From IMG/VR virus record IMGVR_UViG_3300027861_000083, positions 1 through 37,635 of that record: 37,635 nt of DNA, one strand, 5' to 3'. This DNA is from a virus. This document shows, piece by piece, positions 10,924 through 37,635 of the stretch (position 1 is its first letter; every line of letters begins with the position of its first letter). A program made the position numbers and the translations under genes. The notes beneath the pieces are model-generated. The model searched no databases and was not told the origin of the DNA. It was given only the letters and a program-made list of their open reading frames with translations.

Positions 10924-13029
10924 ATGCGGAAGAATAGACGAACTGACGAAAAGCTCTCCCTTCGCTTAGGGACGCTCGTCCCAACACAAGGGTTTACCCA
11001 ATCTTTGACGAGATCGTTGACTTCCGGGGTCACTAGCACAGCAGGATTTGACCCGCTTTCCCTCAACCCAGCCTTCTGGTTTGACATGGATGTCTCTATG
11101 CTGGCGGCGGGTGATGTGGCAGCGGAAGAAGCTGATCTAGTCGCAACATTGGAAAACAAAGTGAGCGGAGGGGGCGACGCGACCCAGACCACAGCAAGCA
11201 AGCAAGCTGTCGCGAAGATCCCCACAGACGGAAGCCAACCGTATCTCTTGATGGATCTTGTAGACGATGAGTATGAGTTCACAACGGATTCAGCTGTCAA
11301 CGGAACCATCGTCGTGGCAACACTTGAGGGAACCTACAGTGCAAACATCTCCCTTAATGCATCTACGCAATACGACCTGCAAGCGCGGGGTGTGTCAGCA
11401 AGCCCTGATTACGGCTTCTTGAAGAATGTTATCGGCTACCTTATCACGCCTTCGCAGTTGAGCGACTCTGAGATAACAAACATCGAAGCGTATTTTGTCG
11501 ATAAAGGGGCAGCAGCGAGGAGCGCATTTGGGAGTGTTACGGACTTCTCTCTCGCATGGTTTAACTGCAACTCCCTCACATCCTTTCCGTTGCTTGATAC
11601 TTCATCGGGGACGAGCTTCAGTAACACATGGTTTAGCTGCTCATCCCTCACATCCTTCCCCTTAATCAACACTTCATCAGGGACGAACTTCACCTACGCA
11701 TGGTATAGCTGCTCCTCCCTCACATCCTTTCCATTGATCAACACTTCATCGGGGACGACCTTCGACAACGCATGGCGCAACTGTAACTCTCTCACATCCT
11801 TTCCGTTGATCAACACTTCATCAGGGACAAACTTCACCCAAACATGGTATAACTGCACCTCACTCACCTCCTTTCCCTTGATCGACACCTCATCGGGGGA
11901 GAACTTCAGTAACACATGGCGGGACTGCTCTTCATTGACATCATTCCCGCTGATTGATGTTTCATCAACTAGCCTTGACTACACATGGTCAGGTTGCACC
12001 TCTCTCGCATCCTTCCCCTTGATAGACACATCGTCAGTGACGAGTTTCGGTGGAGCATGGCAGTATTGCTCCTCGCTCACATCCTTTCCGCTCATTGACA
12101 CCACACTAGGCACTAACTTCGGTTTTACATGGCGTAACTGTACCTCTCTCACATCATTTCCCCTGATCAACACTTCATTAGGGACGAACTTCACCTACGC
12201 ATGGAATGGCTGCTCATCCCTCACATCCTTCCCCTCAATCAACACTTCATCAGGGACGACCTTCTCCGTCGCATGGTATAACTGCTCCTCCCTCACATCC
12301 TTTCCTTTGATCGATACTTCATCAGGGACGAACTTCGCTTACGCATGGTATAACTGCTCCTCACTCACATCATTTCCCTTGCTTGATACTTCATTAGGGA
12401 CGAACTTCAGCCAAACATGGCGTAACTGCACCTCTCTCACATCCTTTCCGCTGATTAACACCTCTTCGGGGACGAACTTCACTGAAGCATGGTATGACTG
12501 CAATTCACTAACCTCTTTTCCCGCTATCGATACTTCATTAGGGACGAACTTCATTAACGCATGGCGTGACTGCAACACACTTACATCCTTCCCTCCTCTT
12601 GATTTTAGTAAAGCTACAGATATGCTCGCTACATGGTTAGGCTGCTCGTCTCTCACCTCCTTCCCTCTGGTCGATACTTCATTAGTAAGGAGATTTGGAT
12701 ATGCGTGGCATAATTGCTACAGCCTTACCACCTTCCCATCAGGATTCTTTGATAGCTGGTCTCCCGCTTCTGTAAACAGCGCAGTCTTCAACCTGACATG
12801 GGACGGCTGCACATCCCTTACCGCTCAGTCAGTTGAGAACATCCTCACCTCCATCGACACCAGCGGAGTCTACGGAACAGATACAGGGGCAAGCGGAGGC
12901 ACTCAGCTAACAGACAATACCATCGACATCGACTATGATGGAACCACGTTGTCATCCGCAACCTCCACGGCAATCACCAGTCTCAAATCTAAGAATTGGG
13001 CCATCTCAATTAACTCAGTAATCCAGTAA
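10924..13029 (+). CDS. BspA-like (DUF285-type) repeat surface protein, likely host-binding
   Basis: Predicted 701 residues. Residues 1-215 form a unique N-terminal region, including FDPLSLNPAFWFDMD. Residues 217-599 are sixteen near-identical units of 24 residues (one of 23) with consensus SLTSFPLIDTSSGTNF..AW.NC, then a degenerate unit and a C-terminal cap. The Trp, Cys and SLTSFP positions are fixed, whereas the two or three residues before the Trp and the one after it vary. This fits the bacterial surface 26-residue repeat / DUF285 leucine-rich-like solenoid. Its place between replication and portal genes is where some marine podoviruses carry accessory virion proteins; receptor binding is inference. 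Confidence 0.8.
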   Translation: MRKNRRTDEKLSLRLGTLVPTQGFTQSLTRSLTSGVTSTAGFDPLSLNPAFWFDMDVSMLAAGDVAAEEADLVATLENKVSGGGDATQTTASKQAVAKIPTDGSQPYLLMDLVDDEYEFTTDSAVNGTIVVATLEGTYSANISLNASTQYDLQARGVSASPDYGFLKNVIGYLITPSQLSDSEITNIEAYFVDKGAAARSAFGSVTDFSLAWFNCNSLTSFPLLDTSSGTSFSNTWFSCSSLTSFPLINTSSGTNFTYAWYSCSSLTSFPLINTSSGTTFDNAWRNCNSLTSFPLINTSSGTNFTQTWYNCTSLTSFPLIDTSSGENFSNTWRDCSSLTSFPLIDVSSTSLDYTWSGCTSLASFPLIDTSSVTSFGGAWQYCSSLTSFPLIDTTLGTNFGFTWRNCTSLTSFPLINTSLGTNFTYAWNGCSSLTSFPSINTSSGTTFSVAWYNCSSLTSFPLIDTSSGTNFAYAWYNCSSLTSFPLLDTSLGTNFSQTWRNCTSLTSFPLINTSSGTNFTEAWYDCNSLTSFPAIDTSLGTNFINAWRDCNTLTSFPPLDFSKATDMLATWLGCSSLTSFPLVDTSLVRRFGYAWHNCYSLTTFPSGFFDSWSPASVNSAVFNLTWDGCTSLTAQSVENILTSIDTSGVYGTDTGASGGTQLTDNTIDIDYDGTTLSSATSTAITSLKSKNWAISINSVIQ
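11572..12720 (+). repeat. Sixteen coding repeats of 72 bp
   Basis: Fifteen 72-bp units and one 69-bp unit (the sixth) in frame within the surface protein, 1149 bp in total. The units are close to each other at the DNA level, with shared ACTTCATC(A/G)GGGACGA and CTCACATCCTT blocks. Such an array invites gain or loss of units by recombination. It also creates several long antisense ORFs that are artefacts. Confidence 0.92.
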
Positions 13030-17395: not shown

Positions 17396-18421
17396 ATGGC
17401 TTACGGAAATACTACTGCGTCCCGCTTAGGGGCAATCAACGGGGGTAGCGATACCCAAGCGTTGTTCTTGAAGGTGTTCTCAGGAGAAATCCTGACCACC
17501 TTTGAAGAGATGAATGTTATGAAGGGTCTTCACACGATCCGCACCATCTCTAACGGAAAGTCTGCACAGTTCCCTGTAACTGGAATTGCGACTGCTAACT
17601 ACCACACTGCTGGAGAAAACATTGCTGACGCTGAAAACAGCTATCTTAGCACTGTTAAGCACGCTGAGAAAGTCATCACGATTGATGATGTTCTCCTTGC
17701 GTCCTCCTTCATCGCTAACATTGATGAGCTTAAGAACCACTACGATGTCCGTAGCATTTACGCTAAGGAACTCGGTAAGGCTCTTGCCAAGCGTTTCGAT
17801 CTGGCGACCATGAAGACTCTTGTCGCTGCTGCTCGCACTACTTCCGTTATTACGGGAGGAAAAGACGGCATCGCTATCGACGGAGGTGAGGCTTCTGCAT
17901 TCACTGCGGCTGTCATCCAGGAGAAGCTCTTTGAAGCTGCTCAGAAGTTGGACGAGAACGACATCCCGAATGATGGGCAGCGTTACGCTATCTTGAAGCC
18001 CGCTGATTACTACAAACTTGTCCAGTCTGACCAAGAGGTAATCAACCGTGACTTCGGTGGTCGTGGTGACGTTGCTACTGGTAACATCCCAATGGTTGCT
18101 GGTCTTCGTATCTTCAAGTCCAATCACCTCTCTGACGTTGCAACAGACCTTTCTGGTGTCGCCACTGGAGACGGTTCTGCGTCTGTTAAGAACGATGTCT
18201 TTGGAGGAGGAGCAGCAGGAGCCGGATACAACGGTGACCTGTCCAAGACCTTCATCATCGGTGGACACCCCTCGGCTATCGGAACTGTCAAGCTTCTTGA
18301 CCTCGCTACCGAGAGTGATTACAAGCTTGAGCTTCAAGGAACCCTGTTCGTTGCTAAATATGCAATGGGCCACGGTGTTCTTCGCCCTGAAGCTTCGTTT
18401 GAAATCAAGGACATTGATTAA
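17396..18421 (+). CDS. Major capsid protein (T7 gp10-like)
   Basis: Predicted 341 residues, HK97-fold family as in T7 gp10A (345). Recognisable parts: ALFLKVFSGEILTTFEEMNVMKGLHTIRTISNGKSAQFPVTGIA near the N-terminus, AEKVITIDDVLLASSFIANIDELKNHYDVRS, and NRDFGGRGDVATGNIPMVAGLRIFKSNHL in the centre. Codon use is more uniform than in the neighbours, as expected of a highly expressed gene. The 130-bp leader and the strong terminator directly downstream mark a highly transcribed unit. A 315-residue antisense ORF here is a shadow. Confidence 0.97.
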   Translation: MAYGNTTASRLGAINGGSDTQALFLKVFSGEILTTFEEMNVMKGLHTIRTISNGKSAQFPVTGIATANYHTAGENIADAENSYLSTVKHAEKVITIDDVLLASSFIANIDELKNHYDVRSIYAKELGKALAKRFDLATMKTLVAAARTTSVITGGKDGIAIDGGEASAFTAAVIQEKLFEAAQKLDENDIPNDGQRYAILKPADYYKLVQSDQEVINRDFGGRGDVATGNIPMVAGLRIFKSNHLSDVATDLSGVATGDGSASVKNDVFGGGAAGAGYNGDLSKTFIIGGHPSAIGTVKLLDLATESDYKLELQGTLFVAKYAMGHGVLRPEASFEIKDID

Positions 18422-18440
18422 TCCCACACCAAGGTTTTCA

Positions 18441-18495
18441 TCCCTGTCCCCTTCGGGGGATGGGGGTGTTACCTTCCCTTTCCTTTTTCTTTTAT
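18441..18495 (+). terminator. Strong Rho-independent terminator after the capsid gene
   Basis: Eleven consecutive pairs (18441-18451 with 18456-18466, including three G-U pairs) close a C(UUCG)G tetraloop at 18452-18455, followed by a pyrimidine and T-rich tail to 18495. Position and strength match the T7 late terminator T-phi after gene 10. Confidence 0.9.
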
Positions 18496-33250: not shown

Positions 33251-33951
33251 AAGACGAACTAAACGAGGCAATAAGGCTTCTTGAAGGATTACGCTCTAGG
33301 ATCGATTCTGAGGGCCTTTTGGATGATTCTGGAGGTCACACTAGAGAAATCTCTGAAAACGCACAGGAGCGCATCCTCGTGCTTGCAGTGGGGCATTCTA
33401 GGGAGCTTGATGCGGGTGCTGTGGCTTATGACGGCGAAACCTACGAATGGCACTACAACACAACGCTCGCCCACAAGATCAAGGAATACCTTCCAAGTCA
33501 CATCAATACAACGATCATCAACCACTACGAAGGGGATTCCTACACCGAGTCCATGCGATGGCTTAAACGAACCGTTAACCCTCTCAATGCGGACCTTGTG
33601 TGTGAACTCCACTTCAATAGCTTCAGCAACCCCAACGTGAAAGGCCACGAGATGCTTCACTGGAACTCATCCATGAAAGGCTTAATCGCCGCATCCAACA
33701 TCAACGATGCCATGAACGAGGACTTCCCAGGGAACACCGACCGAGGAGTCAAAAAAGTAACACACGGTGAACGCGGTGCTGGATTCCTTTACGGACCCAA
33801 GGCTCCGTGCGTGATCATTGAGCCGTTCTTTGGGTCAAACCCCGATGAATGGGAGGCTTTTGGGGAGACCGAAACCACCTTCAACGCCCTTGCAAAAACC
33901 TTAGCACGGGGAATCTCTATAACACTCTCTTACTCAACGCCTAATAAATAA
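33241..33951 (+). CDS. N-acetylmuramoyl-L-alanine amidase (Amidase_3), endolysin
   Basis: Predicted 236 residues. After an N-terminal helical part (1-45) the zinc amidase domain shows His52 in AVGHSRELD, Glu69 in YEWHYN, His124 in ELHFNSF and Glu194 in CVIIEPFF: the metal ligands and catalytic Glu of the Amidase_3 fold (AmiC-like). It cleaves the amide bond between the glycan and peptide of peptidoglycan. This is a different family from the T7 lysozyme gp3.5 (Amidase_2), which is absent from its usual place. It overlaps the terminase end by ten bases. No signal peptide, so a holin is needed. Confidence 0.92.
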   Translation: MDIKDELNEAIRLLEGLRSRIDSEGLLDDSGGHTREISENAQERILVLAVGHSRELDAGAVAYDGETYEWHYNTTLAHKIKEYLPSHINTTIINHYEGDSYTESMRWLKRTVNPLNADLVCELHFNSFSNPNVKGHEMLHWNSSMKGLIAASNINDAMNEDFPGNTDRGVKKVTHGERGAGFLYGPKAPCVIIEPFFGSNPDEWEAFGETETTFNALAKTLARGISITLSYSTPNK

Positions 33952-33976
33952 CACCCATAATAGGGAGGAAAGAAAG

Positions 33977-34137
33977 CCTCTCTTTAAGATTCTCTCTGAG
34001 ATAGGAGGAGAAGGAGATAAAAATAACAATCCTCTCTTAAAGATGTCTCTGAGAAAACTCTAAGATTGGTTTATTATTTTTTATCCTTATTATTATCCAA
34101 TCTCAGAGAAATCTCTAAGATATCTTAAAGAGGGAGG
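33977..34137 (+). repeat. Two direct and one inverted repeat forming alternative hairpins
   Basis: In the 220-bp gap after the amidase, arm A1 (33977-34002) and arm A2 (34031-34069) are related direct copies, and arm B (34097-34134) is their inverted copy. A2 and B can form 31 pairs in 38 positions with two G-U pairs, around a 27-base T/A loop. A1 can instead pair with B in two perfect blocks of about 11 and 10 bases. The zone is purine or pyrimidine rich on each side and has GGAGG-like runs. It may be a terminator, an attenuator, an origin or a stabilising 3' end. Confidence 0.75.
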
Positions 34138-34171
34138 AGAAAGAGAGAGAGAGACACCTTTGTAGTGTTCA

Positions 34172-34884: not shown

Positions 34885-35043
34885 ATGACCGAAAACGACT
34901 ACCGCCAAGAAACCATCACGCATTCCCAAGCTCTTTACCAGCTTAAGCAGCACGGAGTGATTGACCTTGAAGAGTTCCACGCGGACCTTGGAAAGCGCGA
35001 GACATACACGGGGGAGGAAGTCCTCAACTGGCTAGGCTACTAG
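34885..35043 (+). CDS. Small hypothetical protein
   Basis: Predicted 52 residues: a mainly helical, acidic protein beginning MTENDYRQETITHSQALYQL, with a central HGVIDLEEFHADLGKRETYTGEEVLNWLGY. The pattern of two helices and a turn suggests a small DNA- or protein-binding domain. It is the first gene of the accessory block, after the long untranslated region. A G-rich AAGGGGAAG lies about 20 bases upstream, too far for a normal Shine-Dalgarno site. Confidence 0.55.
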   Translation: MTENDYRQETITHSQALYQLKQHGVIDLEEFHADLGKRETYTGEEVLNWLGY

Positions 35044-35048
35044 ATAGA

Positions 35049-35100
35049 GTGTTAATTCCTAGAATTCCTCGCGATTATCGCGGGGGATTCAATGGAGTAA
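35049..35100 (+). promoter_or_regulatory. Structured leader element, copy 1
   Basis: Starts with GTGTTAATTCC, then a 14-position self-complementary stem (35062-35075 with 35077-35090; innermost pairs cannot form in the loop), then GGAGTAA about 25 bases before the start of the gene at 35123. Copy 2 is at 35786-35844. A shared leader RNA, operator or protein-binding site is likely. Confidence 0.6.
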
Positions 35101-35122
35101 GCAAACAAAAGCTCCCATTAAA

Positions 35123-35524
35123 ATGATGAAAAAACGACAAATGACCGAATCAACGCATAGTCTCTTGAAGACCATTCAAGCGTACCAAGCCACCATCTCG
35201 CCGCTATTTCAAAAGGCCATCGAGATGCCACCAACCACCGCACAAAGAAAACTGGGAGCCAATCGCGGCAAGACGCGCCTTTGGTTGGAAGGAAACATCC
35301 TTTCAGAGTCCAATTGGAATCGCGGCGATTCCTTTGATGTTATTTGGCTCGACGGCGTTTTGCGCTACATCAAGAATCCTAACGGAGCGCGAAAAGTCGC
35401 TGGCACGGAAGCAAGGCCGATCATTGACACCAATACCGACAAGCTCGCCTCCACGCTCCACGCATCCACGGGTGATAAGGTATCGCTCACTGTCACTTCC
35501 AATTCAATCACAATCCAGAAGTAG
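35123..35524 (+). CDS. Hypothetical protein with a beta-barrel-like C-terminal domain
   Basis: Predicted 133 residues. The N-terminus is helical (about 1-45). From residue about 50 the pattern KTRLWLEGNILSESNWNRGDSFDVIWLDGVLRYIKNPNGARKVAG, then RPIIDTNTDKLASTLHASTGDKVSLTVTSNSITI, looks like a small double beta-hairpin domain as in AbrB- or SymE-like proteins, and resembles short proteins I have seen next to phage DNA methylases. Function unknown. The leader contains structured element copy 1. Confidence 0.6.
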   Translation: MMKKRQMTESTHSLLKTIQAYQATISPLFQKAIEMPPTTAQRKLGANRGKTRLWLEGNILSESNWNRGDSFDVIWLDGVLRYIKNPNGARKVAGTEARPIIDTNTDKLASTLHASTGDKVSLTVTSNSITIQK

Positions 35525-35532
35525 ATTTAGTC

Positions 35533-35784
35533 ATGACCCAAAAAGAAGCCCAACAAGCGATCATGAAGCTGTATTACGGAATGAAGGACGCTCAAGCCCT
35601 CTTGACGCATCGCAATAATACCGGATTAACAACCTTAGAACGCTACAAGTCCGGCGAGATTGACAATCCTTCCGGTTATCTCATGGAGATCTCGCGCGAG
35701 GTAATCAACGTTAATTCAGTCCGCGACATTTCGCGAAGGAATGAAGCTATTCGAGACGCGATCCAATATCTCCGCACTCACTAG
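35533..35784 (+). CDS. Small helical hypothetical protein
   Basis: Predicted 83 residues, helical throughout: TQKEAQQAIMKLYYGMKDAQALLTHRNNTG, then LTTLERYKSGEIDNPSGYLMEISREVINVNSVRDISRRNEAIRDAIQYLRTH. It begins nine bases after the preceding gene, with the same TTTAGTCATG / ATAGTCATG start context as the gene at 36106. No motif recognised; a DNA-binding role is possible. Confidence 0.55.
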   Translation: MTQKEAQQAIMKLYYGMKDAQALLTHRNNTGLTTLERYKSGEIDNPSGYLMEISREVINVNSVRDISRRNEAIRDAIQYLRTH

Positions 35785-35785
35785 C

Positions 35786-35844
35786 GTGTTAGTTCCCTTC
35801 AATCCCTCTTGGCGGCAATCGTCAGGGGGATTTTGGGGAGTTAA
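35786..35844 (+). promoter_or_regulatory. Structured leader element, copy 2
   Basis: Starts with GTGTTAGTTCCC, then a nine-pair stem (35801-35809 with 35824-35832, one G-U pair) with a 14-base loop, then GGAGTTAA, about 25 bases before the gene at 35864. Order and spacing of the blocks match copy 1 at 35049-35100. Confidence 0.6.
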
Positions 35845-35863
35845 TAACCACTCCGTTTTGATT

Positions 35864-36103
35864 ATGACAAAAGAAAACGAAATAAGACAAGCCCTCGCAA
35901 CGGGCATCCCGGTGACCGTCAATGGTCGCCAAATGACCACCAACGGAACGCGCTTGGTAGTTGTTATCAACACCGGACGCGGCACGGCGTTTACTCACGC
36001 TAATCGTGAAGACATAGACGCTGCTGTTATTGATCCTAGCACCGTCGAAATGAATCGCGTGTTTGATCGCATCGAATCCTTACTTGAAAGGGGCGGAGAA
36101 TAG
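35864..36103 (+). CDS. Hypothetical protein with a small beta-hairpin core
   Basis: Predicted 79 residues from ATG 35864 (MTKENEIRQALATGIPVTVNGRQM). The core TNGTRLVVVINTGRGTAFTHANREDI reads as two strands and a turn, and a helix ends the protein (EMNRVFDRIESLLERGG). An in-frame ATG at 35741 would start inside the previous gene and remove the leader, so it is not used. No known domain. Confidence 0.55.
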   Translation: MTKENEIRQALATGIPVTVNGRQMTTNGTRLVVVINTGRGTAFTHANREDIDAAVIDPSTVEMNRVFDRIESLLERGGE

Positions 36104-36295: not shown

Positions 36296-37027
36296 ATGAA
36301 AACAACAACTAAAAAACCAGCATGGAAACCTTCCCTAGGCTCCTTTTCAAAAGCGGTCCAAGGTGCAATCTCTCTTAATTTTGGAGAGTCAGGGGGAATC
36401 AATTGCTCCACGAAATGCGAGGCGTTGAAGCTTGGCGTATGTTACGCGGTACACACCGAAAAGATGAAGCCAAGTATTCAAACAAGCGGAGAAAGGAAAA
36501 GGAAGCACGGTTTCGCAAAGGTTTGTCTTGAATACCGAAACCAAATCGAAAGACTAGAAAGCAAAGGGAAAGCAATCCCCTGGATTCGTTTCTCAACATT
36601 CGGAAGTGTCCCTAATAGGCGTTTAACGGGTGTTGAGATGCAAGCTTTTGCCGATCTAGTGCGCTCTTTTCCTTCCGGCGTGCCCGTGCATTTCCCAGTA
36701 GAGACAAAGGAGAAAGCCGAAAGGTTTCGCGCTATTGCTGTCGCGTTCGATCTTTCGCTTGTCGTTCGGGAATCGTGTCAGTCTGATAGGCGAGCAAATG
36801 AAACACTCGCGGAAAACTCGCCAGCATCCAGGATTGTTTACAAGGGAGAGAACAAGCGCGAAAGGCTCGTAAATGCGCAAAAGCTTGCCCGGAAAAGCAA
36901 AGGGAAAGCGCGTGTTTGTCCTGCTATTGCGTCAACTATCCTCAGGCGTGATAATCCTGTTAAATGTGGACAGTGTACTTTGTGTGCGCGTGGTGACGTG
37001 AATTTGATCCTTTACCCTCAACACTAA
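36296..37027 (+). CDS. Gp88/DUF7227-like cysteine-rich phage protein
   Basis: Predicted 243 residues from ATG 36296. Near the N-terminus (about residues 30-50) lies INCSTKCEALKLGVCYA, and the C-terminal end is KCGQCTLCARGDVNLILYPQH, a closing C-x2-C-x2-C...H set. Together they suggest metal binding, possibly an Fe-S centre. The segments IRFSTFGSVPNRRLTG and VHFPVETKEKAERF fit families annotated in phages as Gp88 or DUF7227. The function is not known. It starts four bases after the previous stop codon. Confidence 0.65.
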   Translation: MKTTTKKPAWKPSLGSFSKAVQGAISLNFGESGGINCSTKCEALKLGVCYAVHTEKMKPSIQTSGERKRKHGFAKVCLEYRNQIERLESKGKAIPWIRFSTFGSVPNRRLTGVEMQAFADLVRSFPSGVPVHFPVETKEKAERFRAIAVAFDLSLVVRESCQSDRRANETLAENSPASRIVYKGENKRERLVNAQKLARKSKGKARVCPAIASTILRRDNPVKCGQCTLCARGDVNLILYPQH

Positions 37028-37466: not shown

Positions 37467-37506
37467 AGGCCGCCCTTGGGATTCCCCTTGGAGCGGCTTT
37501 TCTTTT
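37467..37506 (+). terminator. Rho-independent terminator at the right end
   Basis: AGGCCGC (37467-37473) pairs with GCGGCTT (37493-37499) with one G-U pair; a smaller GGG-ATT-CCC hairpin sits in the loop. A T-rich tail (TTTTCTTTT) follows. It ends the accessory transcript directly before the terminal repeat. Confidence 0.8.
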
Positions 37507-37509
37507 GTG

Positions 37510-37635
37510 TCCGTCCCTTGGTCCGTCCTTTGGTCCGTCCCTTGGTCCGTCCTTTGGTCCGTCCTTGTGTCCGTCCTTGTGTCCGTCCTTGTGTCCGTCC
37601 TTGTGTCCGTCCTTGTGTCCGTCCCTGGGTCCGGC
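37510..37635. repeat. Right copy of the terminal direct repeat
   Basis: Identical over 126 bases to 11-136. It contains ten complete 12-bp units and half of an eleventh, cut by the window end. If the window is circular, the next bases would be those at 137 onward. Confidence 0.9.

Follow-up and report, generated by a model that had tools for sequence, protein, structure and literature searches.

Why should two look-alike hairpins stand directly before two small genes whose products do not resemble one another? The question is raised by a 37,635-nt viral sequence (the window, by which we mean that whole stretch), for which the original prediction described a set of ordered blocks shared by two leaders. 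All of these blocks are found where they had been placed, and the joint pattern GTGTTARTTCC, AATYCCTC, GGGGGATT and GGAGT occurs in the whole window exclusively at 35049 and 35786 of the plus strand, with no occurrence on the minus strand. Taken singly, GTGTTARTTCC with up to two mismatches has a window frequency at chance level, and GGGGGATT has 2 matches in the window against 1.1 expected. The starts given for the two elements hold; their 3' ends had been set too short, as pairing extends a few bases further, to ~35103 and ~35846. The elements and the genes behind them are as follows.

35049..35103, plus strand: copy 1, with lower stem P1, inner loop and upper stem P2 (from fold z-scores and covariation across 36 copies).
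35123..35524, plus strand: early gene behind copy 1, 133 aa (relatives in 12 viral contigs).
35786..35846, plus strand: copy 2, with lower stem P1, inner loop and upper stem P2 (from fold z-scores and covariation across 36 copies).
35864..36103, plus strand: early gene behind copy 2, 79 aa (relatives in 5 viral contigs).

Each copy follows a TAG stop codon (35041-35043 for copy 1, 35782-35784 for copy 2) and precedes the next ATG, at 35123 and 35864, respectively. None of 200 dinucleotide shuffles folds as well as either copy; the fold z-scores for the longer and shorter cut-outs are -5.0 and -6.8 for copy 1 and -3.8 and -5.1 for copy 2, and when the whole window is ranked by 62-nt fold strength, both copies come within the first five. 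The proteins encoded downstream of them are indeed dissimilar (comparison E=21), and the 133-aa protein has no Pfam or PHROG family match.

The window represents a T7-type podovirus: it encodes a single-subunit RNA polymerase, a Gp2.5-like protein, primase/helicase, DNA polymerase and a tyrosine integrase, besides head and tail genes of T7 type. Among named records the uncultured phage S45C18 (Autographiviridae, Ayaqvirus, Mediterranean plankton) comes nearest, with a polymerase 76.5% identical; its counterpart elements are found in the early region, with the amidase gene on one side and the integrase and polymerase genes on the other. The 52-aa protein encoded before copy 1 has a homologue near a genome end in several cultured T7-like phages. 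In S45C18, the protein behind the equivalent element (L021 7649-8062) is composite: its N-terminal piece resembles the product of window 35864-36103 and its C-terminal piece that of window 35123-35524 (68% identical), which suggests that modules have been shuffled between early genes.

Other features of the record were noted in passing. Tandem 12-bp repeats of one family (TCCGTCCTTGTG-like) occupy both record ends (1-208 and 37468-37635) and are one array split by circular permutation, as expected for a permuted record. A coding array of 72-bp units spans 11471-12703 within a 701-aa ORF (10924-13029), and the non-coding stretch that separates the amidase from the first early gene contains purine- and pyrimidine-rich inverted repeats (CTCTCTTTAAGAT.. 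and ..ATCTTAAAGAGGGAGG) at 33950-34170. A very stable hairpin directly 3' of the major head protein gene (18417-18478) is likely a terminator, as after the capsid gene of T7-like phages. Shine-Dalgarno-like 4-base matches were found upstream of 2 of 36 genes in the window and 3 of 39 in S45C18, compared with 17% of random places, a rarity pointing to a host with Shine-Dalgarno-independent initiation. Bacterial genomes searched with the polymerase protein and a restrictive element pattern yielded no element and one polymerase candidate, unconfirmed.

Further copies were gathered by DNA-pattern and protein scans of viral contigs, leaving out as chance matches the pattern-scan loci L026, L032, L041, L044, L045 and others scoring at most 24 bits. 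The resulting hairpin family comprises 36 distinct aligned copies on 24 phage contigs, one to four per contig; records of 37.6-40.6 kb carry one or two each, antisense echoes not being counted. The window copies, both of them seed members of the family model R1, score 63.8 (copy 1) and 52 bits (copy 2). RNAalifold recovers the two-stem structure from the 36-copy alignment. For the hand-named structure, 90.7% of alignment cells pair against 83.4% in shuffles, cells changed on both sides number 69 against 25.6, and the covariation score is 0.32 against 0.19, all values that the relatedness of the copies inflates. Sliding the partners makes every pairing and covariation measure collapse. Several of the changes are plain compensatory swaps, such as AAUUCC/GGGAUU in the window, CAGCCC/GGGCUG in contig L005 and CGCCUC/GAGGCG in contig L028. 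The original prediction had named a lack of further copies, or pairing broken without compensation, as grounds for giving it up; copies in related genomes keep compensated pairing, so neither outcome arose, and the covarying stem positions that it had proposed looking for are present.

The upper stem covaries, G-U makes up ~20% of pairs, and in each of the 36 copies folding favours the sense strand over the antisense. Sense-strand folding together with covariation in the upper stem indicates that the selected object is the mRNA, in keeping with the view that this is a cis element whose structure is under selection and which acts as RNA. The predicted hairpin extends over about two helical turns, mostly 20-25 bp, with a small inner loop breaking the stem (2/3 commonest; 0/0 or 0/1 in 12 copies of the MFE structures). 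Neither the gathering nor the permissive thresholds of Rfam gave a relevant match, ribozymes included, and model R1 has no match in the early ends of T7, HTVC031P, HTVC019P, CRP-171, CRP-125, LUZ100 and Nobby; within what was searched, the sequence family is therefore confined to this group of phages. The family is a genuine and hitherto uncatalogued structured RNA, carried by uncultured marine phages that are T7-like. A literature search, with most subscription journals outside its scope, returned nothing on RNA processing in these phages.

What the copies have in common besides structure is their placement. All 36 are on the coding strand, and 19-43 nt separate their GGAG from the ATG that follows; they often touch or overlap the stop codon of the preceding frame, and they lie in the early region of phages with a T7-type polymerase. 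The proteins encoded downstream fall into at least 15 single-linkage clusters, and the statement that the element precedes unrelated small genes, made from two examples, thus extends to the family. Contig L028 has four copies in alternation with genes; one follows the homologue of the GP88-like protein encoded at 36296-37027, a place where the window has none. As a Shine-Dalgarno sequence GGAG was rejected, given that the genes of these phages lack such sequences and that the GGAG-ATG distance is 19-43 nt.

A third pairing strand, missing from the original prediction, lies downstream of each element. The 3' arm of P1 starts with GGAGU, and a second partner for it, CUCC, occurs between this arm and the ATG in 34 of the 36 copies, compared with 2.7 expected from composition. 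It is mostly preceded by A or G, pairing with the U of GGAGU, and in the L028 copies the helix gains a sixth pair, itself compensated (GGAGUG..CACUCC). In the window this alternative partner lies shortly 3' of the arm, at ~35112-35115 (copy 1) and ~35851-35854 (copy 2), and defines an alternative hairpin, P3.

35094..35121, plus strand: P3 of copy 1, GGAGU with GCUCC; predicted cut just 5' of the first G.
35837..35854, plus strand: P3 of copy 2, GGAGU with ACUCC; predicted cut just 5' of, or inside, the preceding G run.

P3 has 4-6 pairs, and P1 and P3 are mutually exclusive. In the intact leader the mean pairing probability is 0.92 for P1 and 0.07 for P3, with one exceptional copy at 0.95 for P3; in an RNA starting at GGAG, P3 reaches a mean of 0.99 over the copies. 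A U-G pair of P1 at the shared strand is invariant in all 36 copies, which would suit a strand serving two partners: P3 fixes the G, and the U keeps P1 exchangeable.

The early RNA of T7 is cut by host RNase III at R0.3, R0.5, R1, R1.1 and R1.3. On balance we favour the reading that the elements are early mRNA-processing signals working like these sites, an argument by analogy; as an RNase III cut at the inner loop is what defines that class, we claim a likeness of working and not membership. In this scheme the early RNA forms P1 and P2 between genes, a folding backed by covariation. Reasoning from T7 anatomy, a double-strand-specific host RNase, most likely RNase III, would cut the inner loop just 5' of GGAGU. 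The upstream message would then end in the P2 hairpin, blocking 3' exonucleases, and the freed GGAGU arm would re-pair with CUCC, placing a hairpin at the new 5' end or very close to it. The potential for this re-pairing and its conservation are established across the 36 copies; in the cell, the hairpin so formed would shield the downstream message from 5'-end-dependent decay. With P2 left upstream and P3 released downstream, one cut would protect both new ends, and unrelated early genes could be added, lost or expressed as separate units. If this is right, T7-style early-message processing extends to uncultured marine phages. The searchable model marks early genes without known function, a practical gain in that genes of this sort often target the host, and the question whether processing sites aid the exchange of early genes as modules becomes open to testing.

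The main rival, an unlikely but serious one, is that an RNA-binding protein of phage or host origin binds the leader and sets the translation or stability of the downstream early genes without cutting. It owes this rank to the lower-stem sequence GUUAAUUCC/GGAGUUAA, which is strongly conserved, and not fully for pairing: in the 5' strand GUUAAUUCC, the A at alignment column 6 stays the same while the base opposite changes, suggesting an extra recognition role. Repeats before unrelated genes would also make an operator-like regulon, and the near absence of the inner loop in some copies speaks against processing. Against a binding protein, unpaired bases, those of the inner loop included, vary among copies and conserved ones are nearly absent, the two pairings of GGAG account for the conservation of GGAG and of its partners, and there is no candidate protein. 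The original prediction had considered that a cis-regulatory RNA or a site of protein binding might coordinate the accessory block; the cis element stands, and the coordinating or binding role is less supported, since the placement, the dimensions and the scarcity of conserved unpaired bases better fit T7-type processing.

Mutually exclusive hairpins are also what a transcription attenuator would present, with P3 as the terminator hairpin and P1/P2 as the competing antiterminator, and a terminator scan does call P3 of copy 2 terminator-like. We consider this improbable: P3 is only 4-6 pairs long, at least five U in the next 8 nt after it are found in only 10 of 34 copies (several have 0-2), terminator-like sites in the region are as frequent as the shuffled mean, and P1 is the first to form and far more stable. 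P1/P2 of the window copies have no U tract directly 3', and as an intrinsic terminator the element was rejected for not combining a GC-rich hairpin with a direct U tract.

More improbable again is selection at the DNA level, for a recombination site folded in the single strand or for a mobile repeat, through which small gene cassettes would move in the manner of integron attC. Copies separate small unrelated genes and, in L028, follow one another in alternation with genes; the window encodes an integrase, and the S45C18 protein resembles a fusion of window modules. The attC core pattern has AAC in the 5' arm and GTT in the 3' arm, an order reversed in the family; the G-U pairs, the better folding of the sense strand in every copy and the constant offset to the ATG also argue against action as DNA, while use as joints in homologous recombination is possible as a side effect. 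Least credible is a small self-cleaving ribozyme of a new type, plausible for the same transcription unit in that HTVC031P carries hammerhead-like sequences before early genes, as the family has no conserved unpaired core, an inner loop that is variable and in some copies nearly absent, and no Rfam ribozyme match.

We return to the processing reading and to the systems with which it can be compared. Like the T7 early sites, the elements are look-alike interrupted hairpins of ~20 bp that precede unrelated early genes of a T7-type phage, and they agree with those sites in place, size, interruption and predicted cut-ATG spacing. With the T7 cuts at coordinates attributed to Dunn and Studier (1983), the same folding places a hairpin at each of the five, with 6-12 bp below the cut and 9-13 bp above, and the cut lies 27-35 nt before the ATG in four of the five sites, next to the 19-43 nt between GGAG and ATG in the family. 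For the T7 R1.1 site, a hairpin of 60 nt whose inner loop is 4/5 has been described (PMC6121014). The family differs in its smaller inner loop, in that the conserved stem is the lower and not the upper one, and in belonging to phages whose genes lack Shine-Dalgarno sequences. Model R1 finds no sequence similarity to the T7 sites, a similarity that T7 relatives usually share and that cleavage does not require; with no match in T7 or the six other cultured T7-like phages, the kinship with the T7 sites is one of anatomy only. The family also has the downstream strand that would make a 5' hairpin after the cut. In T7 such a hairpin is absent from four of the five sites, R1.1 alone having one, slightly inside, so that a cut releasing a ready-made 5' protective hairpin would be a new trick compared with the five T7 early sites.

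The pelagiphage HTVC019P (L060, KC465901) has two related hairpins, at ~1480-1550 and ~1820-1890, before the early genes at 1578 and 1924. As in the family, an interrupted hairpin is followed by a strand that can re-pair with its 3' arm into a predicted 5' hairpin (GACUUUU..AAAAGUC); unlike the family, its sequence is unrelated, without an R1 match, and its U-rich 3' arm could also be a terminator. In HTVC031P (L057, MH598800) hammerhead-like sequences with cores CUGAUGAG and CGAAAC and closing helices lie at 1301-1367 and ~290-350, 30-45 nt before the early genes at 1399 and 364; Rfam Hammerhead_II scores 25.6 bits on 1301-1367, below its gathering score of 37. From the occurrence of such hairpins and hammerhead-like sequences at these places, we infer that these phages may repeatedly need to have the early message cut ahead of single genes.

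In Escherichia coli, RNase III cuts have been proposed to leave protective 5' or 3' hairpins (PMC5371410). The predicted products resemble RNAs with 5'-terminal stem-loop stabilisers in that the hairpin of the downstream product is at its extreme 5' end, with that of the upstream product near its 3' end. Unlike those stabilisers, the predicted 5' hairpin of the family lies concealed within the processing site, and it is the cut that would set it free. We tentatively propose a processing-triggered RNA switch, in which one arm of the cleavage hairpin doubles as an arm of a hidden 5' protective hairpin and a single cut caps both mRNA ends, and at which this phage group and HTVC019P may have arrived with unrelated sequences.
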